Under the pieces are notes generated by a model. It saw only the letters and a list, made by a program, of their open reading frames with translations. It was not told where the DNA came from and made no database searches. The translations under genes and the position numbers were made by a program. DNA of 64,000 nt from Rhodoferax sp. (GTDB lineage: Bacteria; Pseudomonadota; Gammaproteobacteria; Burkholderiales; Burkholderiaceae_C), in NCBI RefSeq assembly GCF_010365055.1, contig NZ_JAAFHA010000001.1:1-64000 (forward strand). Reading direction: 5' to 3'. Shown piece by piece: positions 27,894-31,452 of the stretch; positions within the stretch are counted from its first letter, which is position 1, and the number at the start of each line of letters is the position of its first letter.

Positions 27894-29087
27894 TCAGCGA
27901 GCGACACGGCGTACCGCTTGCTGCGCGGCAGCACGCGACGCGGCATCCAATGCCAGCAGATCGTCCAGCGATTGCGGACTGGCCGGCACCACCGACTCGA
28001 GCGTTTCCAGATTGACGCCATGAATCTGGTCAAAGCGTATTTGGCCGTCAAGAAACGCAGCAACCGCCACTTCATTGGCGGCGTTCAACACGGCGGTTGA
28101 ACCGGAAGGCGCATTCAGAACTTGCCACGCCAGCTTCAAACCCGGAAAACGTTGTTCGTGGCCGTTCGAGTCCAGCGACTCGAAGGTCATATCTGCCATC
28201 ACCCGAAAATCCAGCGCGCCAGCACCCGAGGCCATCCGGTCGGGCCAGGCCAGGCCATAGGCAATCGGCACTTTCATGTCGGGCGTGCCGAGTTGGGCCA
28301 GCACGGAATTGTCTTTGTACTGCACCATGGAATGAATGACGCTCTGCGGGTGAATCACGACCTCGATCTGTTCTGGCGTGACACCAAACAGGAAGCGCGC
28401 CTCAATGACTTCCAGGGCTTTGTTCATCATGGTGGCGGAATCGACTGAAATCTTCCGCCCCATGACCCAATTGGGGTGGGCACAGGCCTGCGCAGGTGTT
28501 ACGTCCCGCAGCGTATGGGGCGCGCGCTGCCGAAAGGGTCCACCCGACGCCGTGAGAATAATTTTGTCAATCTGGCTCGACCAGACCGCAGCATCATCGG
28601 GCAGTGACTGAAAAATGGCCGAATGCTCGCTGTCAATCGGCAGCAGCTTGGCGCCCCCTGTGGTGACCGCCTGCATGAAATAAGCGCCCCCCACCACCAA
28701 GGCTTCCTTGTTCGCCAGCAACAGACGTTTGCCGGCGTGGGCCGCAGCCAGACAGGAGGCCAGGCCGGCGGCACCCACAATCGCCGCCATCACCGCATCC
28801 GCCTCTTCGTGCGAGGCAATCATGGCCAAGGCCGACGCACCCCAAAGAACCCGAGTCGTCAGACCAAGGTCGCGGCATTGACGCTCCAGCACACGACCGT
28901 GCGGCTCGCTGACCATGACGGCAAACACGGGTTTGAACTGCACACACTGCTGCAGTAATAATTCGTTCTGCGTCGACGCGCTCAGGGCGAACACCTCGAA
29001 CCGGTCGGGATGGCGCGCAATCACGTCAAGCGTGCTGACCCCAATGGAACCGGTTGAGCCCAGAATAGCGACCCGCTGTTTAACCAT
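27894..29087 (-). CDS. dxr: 1-deoxy-D-xylulose-5-phosphate reductoisomerase
   Basis: Converts DXP to 2-C-methyl-D-erythritol 4-phosphate in the MEP isoprenoid route. At 397 residues it is close to E. coli (398). The NADPH loop is ILGSTGSIG, the metal and substrate motifs are LLPIDSEHSAIFQSL and ASGGPFR, and SVDSATMMNKALEVIEA follows. ATG 29087 (MVKQRVAILG) is the preferred start, although the ATG at 29105 overlapping the cdsA stop would add coupling. Note that uppS, usually next to cdsA, is absent. Confidence 0.97.
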   Translation of the reverse strand: MVKQRVAILGSTGSIGVSTLDVIARHPDRFEVFALSASTQNELLLQQCVQFKPVFAVMVSEPHGRVLERQCRDLGLTTRVLWGASALAMIASHEEADAVMAAIVGAAGLASCLAAAHAGKRLLLANKEALVVGGAYFMQAVTTGGAKLLPIDSEHSAIFQSLPDDAAVWSSQIDKIILTASGGPFRQRAPHTLRDVTPAQACAHPNWVMGRKISVDSATMMNKALEVIEARFLFGVTPEQIEVVIHPQSVIHSMVQYKDNSVLAQLGTPDMKVPIAYGLAWPDRMASGAGALDFRVMADMTFESLDSNGHEQRFPGLKLAWQVLNAPSGSTAVLNAANEVAVAAFLDGQIRFDQIHGVNLETLESVVPASPQSLDDLLALDAASRAAAQQAVRRVAR

Positions 29088-29104
29088 GCTCGTCACACCC
29101 TTCA

Positions 29105-29959
29105 TCAAAGCTGTGCCACCGAGTAAAGCATCATCGCCAGTGGCAAGGTGGGCAACAAGGCGTCCACCCGGTCGAGCACGCCGCCATGACCTGGCAGCAA
29201 GCCACTGCTGTCCTTGACACCCGCACTGCGCTTCACCAGTGACTCAAACAAGTCACCCACCACACTCATCGCCGCCAAAAATAGGGCAACAATCAGCAGC
29301 AACCAGCCGCCGTGTCGGCCCAGGTGGGTAAAAAAACTGGGTACGGTGCTGGTCCAGGCGGAATCCAACCAGCGCCAGGTAAAGGCCAGCGCGATGACGC
29401 CTGCCATGCCGCCCCACACACCTTCCCAGCTTTTGCCGGGGCTGATGCTGGGTGCAAGTTTGCTGCGGCTGAAACGCCCGCCGAAGGTGCGGCCCGCAAA
29501 ATAGGCACCAATGTCTGCCACCCACACCAGCACGAGGATAGACAATAAAAAATTGATGCCAATCACCCGGGCCTGCGCCACCGCCAGCCAGGCCAGGCAC
29601 AGAGCCAGCAGGCCTGCGAGCAGCCGCAGCGCGCGCGGATGAACCGCCCAGGCGGACACACCGCGGTGCAACACCCAGGCGCCAGCCAGCACCCAGACAG
29701 CGCCCGCGGCCAGCCAGAGCCCGGACAACGATCGCTCCAGCAAGCCTGACCACCAAGCCACGGCGCAAAGCAGTCCACAAACCGCGCCCACAGCCAGCGA
29801 AACCGATTGGCCATAGCCGTTCAGGCGAGCCCACTCCCATGCACCGGCAGCAATCAGCAACAGGGCGATGGCGCAAAACGGCTCGGGCGAACGGTAGAAC
29901 ATGGCCGGCAGCAAGATAAGCAGCAGGACCAGGGCAGTGATAACGCGTTGCTTCAACAT
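29105..29959 (-). CDS. cdsA: Phosphatidate cytidylyltransferase
   Basis: Makes CDP-diacylglycerol from phosphatidate and CTP at the inner membrane. It has 284 residues with about eight hydrophobic helices. The family signature near the C-terminus is SVVGDLFESLVKRSAGVKDSSGLLPGHGGVLDRVDALL; the DLFES and KDSS segments carry metal-binding acids. Upstream GAYFAGRTFGGRFSRSKLAPSISPGKSWEG is also conserved. Its stop overlaps a possible dxr ATG. The 109 bp between frr and cdsA is where uppS would normally be. Confidence 0.96.
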   Translation of the reverse strand: MLKQRVITALVLLLILLPAMFYRSPEPFCAIALLLIAAGAWEWARLNGYGQSVSLAVGAVCGLLCAVAWWSGLLERSLSGLWLAAGAVWVLAGAWVLHRGVSAWAVHPRALRLLAGLLALCLAWLAVAQARVIGINFLLSILVLVWVADIGAYFAGRTFGGRFSRSKLAPSISPGKSWEGVWGGMAGVIALAFTWRWLDSAWTSTVPSFFTHLGRHGGWLLLIVALFLAAMSVVGDLFESLVKRSAGVKDSSGLLPGHGGVLDRVDALLPTLPLAMMLYSVAQL

Positions 29960-30068
29960 TTAGTCGCTCTCAGGCAAAGCCAGGCACCAAGGTCGACACT
30001 ACGCTCGCCACGACACGCTGGCCTGCCAAGTGCTGGGCACATAAGGCGAGAGGCAAGGTTGCTGCCAA

Positions 30069-30629
30069 TCAAACCGCCATGATCTCTTGCTCTTTGGCAG
30101 CCACCAGTTGGTCGATCACGATGATGTGCCGGTCCGTCACTTTCTGAATGTCGGTCTCGCAGCGTTTTTGCTCATCTTCCGAGGCCAGTTTGTCCTTGAC
30201 GGCTTTTTTGATCGCCTCATTGGCATCACGGCGCAAATTGCGGACCGCAATCTTGGCGCCCTCGCCCTCATTGCGGACCACTTTGGTCAGTTCCTTGCGC
30301 CGCTCCTCCGACATGGCGGGCATCGGGACCCGGATCAAGTCGCCCATGGACGATGGATTGAGTCCCAGGTCGCTGTCACGAATGGCCTTTTCAATCTTGG
30401 CGCCCATGCCCTTTTCCCAGGGTTGCACACTGATGGTGCGAGCATCCAGCAAGGACACATTGGCCACCTGGCTGATCGGCAGCATGGCGCCGTAATAGTC
30501 AACGTGCACAGAGTCCAGCAACGCTGGGTTGGCGCGGCCGGTCCGAATCTTGGTCAGGTTGTGTTTAAACGCTTCGATGGATTGGTCCATCTTGCCTTCA
30601 ACCGTGTTTTTTATATCGGCAATCGTCAT
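30069..30629 (-). CDS. frr: Ribosome recycling factor
   Basis: Splits post-termination ribosomes with EF-G. The 186 residues form a three-helix bundle plus a beta/alpha domain. Typical segments are [61 protein letters not shown] and IRNLRRDAN-type [13 protein letters not shown]. It follows pyrH by 60 bp, as in most proteobacteria. Confidence 0.98.
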
Positions 30630-30689: not shown

Positions 30690-31412
30690 TCAGGCATAAA
30701 CCAGCGTGCCCTCGTCTTCGCCCATCACCACACGCTTGAGCGCGCCGTGTTTCAAGATAGAAAACACCTTGATCGGCAGCTTTTGATCACGGCACAGAGC
30801 AAAGGCGGTAGCGTCCATGATGCCCAGGTTTTGCGCCATCGCGTCATCGAAGGAGATTTTGCTGTAGCGGGTGGCCTTCGGGTCTAACTTTGGGTCGGCG
30901 GTGTAAACGCCATCGACCTTGGTCGCCTTGAGCACCACCTCGGCACCGATTTCAGCGCCGCGCAAGGCCGCGGCGGTATCGGTGGTGAAAAACGGGTTGC
31001 CGGTGCCAGCGGCAAAAATCACCACTTTTCCTTCTTCCAGGTATTGCAGTGCCTTGGGGCGAACATAGGGCTCCACCACCTGCTCAATCGCAATCGCCGA
31101 CATGACGCGCGCCGTCAACCCCGCCTTGTTCATGGTGTCACCCAGGGCCAGGGCATTCATGACGGTAGCCAACATGCCCATGTAATCGGCCGTGGCCCGG
31201 TCCATCCCGACCGAGCCGCCCGCCACACCCCGAAAGATATTGCCCCCGCCAATGACCACCGCCAACTGCACACCCAGACGGGTCACCTCGGCGATCTCGT
31301 CGACCATGCGCACGATCGTGTCACGGTTAATACCAAATGGGTCATCGCCCATCAGGGCTTCGCCTGACAGCTTGAGCAAAATACGCTTGTGGGCTGGTTT
31401 GGCGACGGACAT
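30690..31412 (-). CDS. pyrH: Uridylate kinase
   Basis: Phosphorylates UMP to UDP; the bacterial enzyme is hexameric and allosteric. It has 240 residues of the amino-acid-kinase fold: [46 protein letters not shown] and the substrate loop [19 protein letters not shown] 31412 is chosen because AGGAG lies six bases upstream (AGGAGTTCATCATG) and the tracked extension of 67 residues is not family-like. Confidence 0.98.
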
Positions 31413-31452
31413 GATGAACTCCTGATGTGATGACGTTTGAGCGGGTAAGTCC

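Follow-up and report, generated by a model that had tools for sequence, protein, structure and literature searches.

Probable recurrent replacement of the operon uppS gene by a diverged, polysaccharide-linked UppS in Rhodoferax sp. and its relatives

The gene for undecaprenyl diphosphate synthase (uppS) is absent from its native place between frr and cdsA in Rhodoferax sp. (NCBI RefSeq assembly GCF_010365055.1), and the genome carries two intact uppS genes on other contigs, both of a UppS clade (type B) separate from that of the in-place comamonad gene (type A). Taking the genome together with its relatives, it is very probable that the essential function passed more than once to a UppS encoded in glycan clusters, and that the native type A copy in the operon was deleted once type B was present. 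The core genes of the frr-uppS-cdsA operon are regarded as stable, single-copy genes, and UppS is a target of antibiotics; in these genomes, the operon copy appears to have been dropped repeatedly for a polysaccharide-linked copy that often lacks Arg39, a residue contacted by modelled inhibitors. That an essential operon gene was replaced recurrently is well supported, and the case is unusual without amounting to a new kind of system.

We analysed a window of 64,000 nucleotides (positions 1 to 64,000 of the forward strand of contig NZ_JAAFHA010000001.1), in which the minus-strand gene order is rpsB-tsf-pyrH-frr-cdsA-dxr-rseP-bamA, normal apart from the missing uppS (Table 1). The preliminary description of this DNA had held that 109 bp separate frr and cdsA with no UppS between them and that the rest of the cluster keeps its usual order, and both statements proved exact: the spacing is precisely 109 bp, and no PF01255 match was found anywhere in the 64-kb window. 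No uppS remnant was detected in the gap, whose local similarity to a congener's uppS scored 19, compared with a median of 18 and a 95% value of 22 for shuffled sequences. Within the same 109 bp, no terminator-like or promoter-like site was found and the fold was no better than that of shuffled sequence.

Table 1. Genes and spacer at the frr-cdsA site of the Rhodoferax sp. window
Feature	Position	Strand	Evidence
frr-cdsA spacer of 109 bp, uppS absent (deletion scar)	29960..30068	-	no remnant above shuffles; 740-804 bp in relatives with uppS
frr, ribosome recycling factor	30069..30629	-	TIGR00496, 220.5 bits versus cut-off of 149.1
cdsA, phosphatidate cytidylyltransferase, directly downstream of scar	29105..29959	-	congener orthologs in frr-uppS-cdsA-dxr order, 59-80% identity
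pyrH, upstream neighbour, order normal	30690..31424	-	pyrH precedes frr in relatives from the family and order, 67-93% identity
dxr, downstream neighbour, order normal	27894..29108	-	dxr after cdsA in relatives

Across the whole genome (188 contigs, 4.33 Mb, 100% complete, 2% contamination), PF01255 has just two matches, C35:5072-5728 and C110:1508-2164, both of them full-length and free of internal stops. Both proteins score above the TIGR00055 cut-off (284.7 and 278.8 bits versus 109.55, over model positions 1-228), the C35 protein matches E. coli UppS (1JP3) at 4.8e-68, and both genes lie downstream of tolA. On C35, the order is ribBA-ribH-nusB-aminotransferase-tolQ-tolR-tolA-uppS, which places uppS after the ancestral tolQRA and outside any glycan cluster; G033, G006, G015, and G027 share this order up to tolA and have no uppS after it. 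On C110, the order is tolR'-tolA-uppS-SLBB/Poly_export-rmlA-rmlC-PglF-like-VanZ, followed by gltX on the other strand. The C110 gene stands at the head of a group of genes for glycan synthesis and export and so belongs to a polysaccharide locus, which the C35 gene does not; neither is an in-operon comamonad (type A) gene, as that site is empty and both genes fall in clade B.

The tolR-tolA-uppS block is duplicated at 87% DNA identity (L003:3540-5746 on C35 and L004:1-2182 on C110); C110 starts inside tolR, and the assembly does not close the duplication. Since dS between the blocks is 0.35-0.58 and dN/dS is 0.06-0.14 (0.58 and 0.14, respectively, for the two uppS copies), the duplication is old and under purifying selection. 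The C35 contig has other peculiarities. Its first 94 bases, which lie inside ribBA, recur unchanged at the starts of C65 and C162 (L003:1-94, L103:1-94, and L104:1-94), a branch in the assembly graph; C162 continues as ribBA-ribE-ribD, and C65 looks like another region. Just after the C35 uppS lies an open reading frame (L003:5821-6480) that resembles a transposase fragment by eye and has no Pfam or NCBIfam match, and the flank beyond it (a BCCT transporter and a P-type ATPase) is unlike that of relatives.

Among 37 genomes of the genus, including this one, uppS lies beside cdsA in 27. It is gone from the site and present elsewhere in this genome (G000), G006, G015, G017, and G020; G027, in which cdsA is at a contig end, has probably suffered the same loss, giving 5-6 genomes of the genus with type B only. 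In the remaining four genomes, all incomplete, uppS was not found. Other families of the order have uppS beside cdsA in all 24 sampled genomes. Outside the genus, the site lacks uppS in G233, G122, G148, G249, G141, G244, G184, G275, and G124. The frr-cdsA gap measures 5-170 bp where uppS has been lost versus 740-804 bp where it is present, and the scars vary in length and sequence between lineages. Those of G148, G249, G184, and G275 (L158, L287, L284, and L285) contain a GC-rich hairpin, in most cases with a T run after it; by eye the structure looks like a terminator, and it could split the operon. On a host tree built from frr, cdsA, and pyrH, absence from the operon requires 8 parsimony changes, at least 4 of them forced, meaning that the in-place gene was lost about eight times among genomes that were partly picked for holding type B and whose ratio of loss to retention is not a family frequency. 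All 13 genomes without native uppS in this tree carry type B. Both types are held by G171, G236, G083, and G211, which are plausible as the expected intermediates.

Several claims of the preliminary description can be judged from these results. Its statement that uppS normally sits beside cdsA in comamonads agrees with the 27 congeners, its expectation that the gene must be elsewhere was confirmed by the two full-length copies on C35 and C110, and its mention of a deletion was right insofar as the operon has lost its native gene. It had also raised an assembly error. The genome is indeed fragmented, into 188 contigs, but the contig is 139,657 bp long with the site about 30 kb from its start, far from either end, and the same absence is seen in 13 other genomes of the family, some of them nearly closed (G141 in one contig, G275 in three, and G244 in eight); we therefore regard removal of uppS by misassembly as practically untenable. 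A separate question is whether C35 or C110 stems from a contaminating related species, in which case the genome would have one type B copy rather than two. The contamination estimate of 2%, the 87% identity of the tolR-tolA-uppS stretch shared by C35 and C110, and the start of C110 inside tolR would all fit this reading, which we nevertheless consider unlikely, given that the genome's only full-length gltX sits on C110 and that positions 95-3568 of C35, the only ribH-nusB-tolQ stretch, are single in the genome. The main conclusion holds with either copy alone, as each is type B.

Where type B came from bears on how the loss is read. A 115-row tree, its bootstrap not yet fully converged, unites all 22 type B sequences in a single clade (100/95) and keeps them separate from the 54 comamonad type A sequences; the nearest neighbours of B are Thiobacillus sequences, and B falls outside type A (93/85 and 97/86). 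The preliminary description had allowed for a site normally empty in close relatives or for a relocated copy; the first does not apply, and the intact uppS genes found elsewhere, which might suggest that the native gene itself moved out of the operon, belong to a different UppS clade. Type B is about 50% identical to in-place comamonad UppS (about 47-52% within the genus), whereas type A genes within the genus share 68-81% identity with the G033 gene, and four genomes carry both types, making simple relocation very improbable. Ancient duplication within the family, with both types in the comamonad ancestor followed by loss of B in most lineages and of A in some, needs no foreign origin and is a variant of the takeover that differs only in the source of type B. 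We hold it to be a possible, if somewhat doubtful, account. Approximately unbiased (AU) tests are compatible with it, as a smaller set did not reject A and B as one clade (p = 0.248), and monophyly of the genus's type B was not rejected either (p = 0.254); on the other side stand the position of B with Thiobacillus in the full tree, its sparse occurrence (about 15 genomes, G122 and G124 included, in an even sample of 251 from the family), and the presence of type A only in the other sampled members of g48, g50, g96, and g136. The position of B with Thiobacillus suggests an origin outside the family, and a proven foreign origin was dropped as a claim because A and B as one clade were not rejected. 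The 115-row tree also groups the G015 type B with that of G233, from another genus (99/90), but since a second tree leaves this grouping open and the genus's type B was not rejected as one clade, it may be taken as a hint of movement between genera. Divergent extra cis-prenyltransferase genes occur beside a normal uppS at L078 (G018, about 28% identical), L265 (G297), and L267 (G123), and are possibly a third class.

Type B genes are linked to surface-polysaccharide clusters. At least 15 of the 22 adjoin glycan markers (SLBB/Wza, Wzc/Wzz, PglF, sugar transferase, rmlA/rmlC, WecA, or RfaH), and the same markers were found at none of 39 in-place loci searched up to 10 kb on each side, the markers being comamonad-derived and less sensitive in distant taxa. 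The neighbour is an SLBB export protein at C110 here and in G015, G017, G020, G171, and G233; a Wza-phosphatase-Wzc set in G124; Wzc and a flippase in G236; a PglF-like dehydratase and a bacterial sugar transferase in G006; rmlA/rmlC in G148 and Limnohabitans planktonicus; rmlA in G249; and UDP-glucose dehydrogenase and a flippase in G083. RfaH lies beside type B in G015, G017, G141, G244, G249, and Limnohabitans planktonicus, and in G275, rml and glycosyltransferase-like genes lie within about 6 kb (open reading frames read by eye). No marker was seen near the C35 copy, a second copy in G233, the G027 gene (contig end), the G211 gene (short locus), or one Limnohabitans locus. The second type B uppS of G233 (L263; G233:C24:101701-102396) is in a region without a polysaccharide marker, and in the same genome the end of contig C43 carries an N-terminal fragment of UppS.

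The catalytic machinery is largely retained. We checked 16 active-site positions by alignment to E. coli UppS 1JP3, and 15 are kept in the C35 protein, including the equivalents of D26, N28, R30, H43, S71, E73, N74, W75, R77, R194, R200, S202, and E213, which we take to be catalytic or substrate residues of the E. coli enzyme. The Arg39 equivalent is V in both the C35 and C110 copies and V or A in 14 of 22 type B sequences, versus R in all 20 type A and all 21 outgroup sequences checked. Docking places Arg39 in the phosphate-binding pocket (PMC6339874). The full E. coli-type pocket, of which this absent residue is a part, is narrower than the UppS family and does not define it. Type B without Arg39 is the sole UppS found in this genome, G006, G015, G017, G020, G148, G249, and G124, and because it stands alone in several genomes, it presumably works, full activity being assumed.

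Polysaccharide clusters consume undecaprenyl phosphate, and a UppS gene of their own would top up the carrier. In the takeover that we favour, type B, linked to surface polysaccharide, would already have been in the same cell as native type A and would have supplied undecaprenyl diphosphate for peptidoglycan, lipopolysaccharide, and the cluster's own polymer; the in-operon type A gene, made redundant, would then have been deleted several times independently. In this genome, type B would persist as two diverged, apparently functional copies, both after tolA. We infer that type B carries the essential function and that gain came before loss, and any regulatory consequence is to be read likewise. 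A more speculative extension, which we think improbable, is that type B is a distinct functional UppS subclass with an altered phosphate pocket (no Arg39), and that its expression from glycan operons of the RfaH type ties carrier supply to surface-polysaccharide output, with cell-wall synthesis depending on a mobile glycan cluster. The family offers natural sets (A only, both, and B only) for testing the handover of an essential enzyme, and annotation based on synteny misses uppS in part of it.

Compared with known systems, the proteins described here are UppS by TIGR00055 and PF01255, with a full-length domain, scores beyond the curated cut-off, and the listed residues of E. coli 1JP3, from which they differ in having V for R39. 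Within the literature searched, which included few subscription journals, we found no report of this replacement, but did find precedents for a uppS2 in a glycan locus. The studied precedent is uppS2 of Clostridioides difficile in the anionic-polymer (PSII) locus, likewise a surface-polysaccharide locus with a second UppS gene in it (PMC4973711). C. difficile keeps uppS1 beside frr and the cytidylyltransferase gene, and its UppS2 shares just 25% identity with B. subtilis UppS (PMC4973711); in the present genome, by contrast, the operon has lost its uppS and the replacement is a close UppS. RfaH cluster CL6, whose neighbours encode UppS (PMC7593976), resembles the six RfaH-adjacent type B loci above, a comparison made by RfaH-UppS adjacency and not by lineage; that source reports adjacency alone, and loss of the operon uppS is reported in the accessible parts of neither PMC4973711 nor PMC7593976. 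The closest general parallel is xenologous or paralogous displacement, in which, as here, an essential operon gene is replaced several times by a diverged homolog at another site; the present case differs in that the replacement is associated with polysaccharide clusters and its foreign origin is only suggested.
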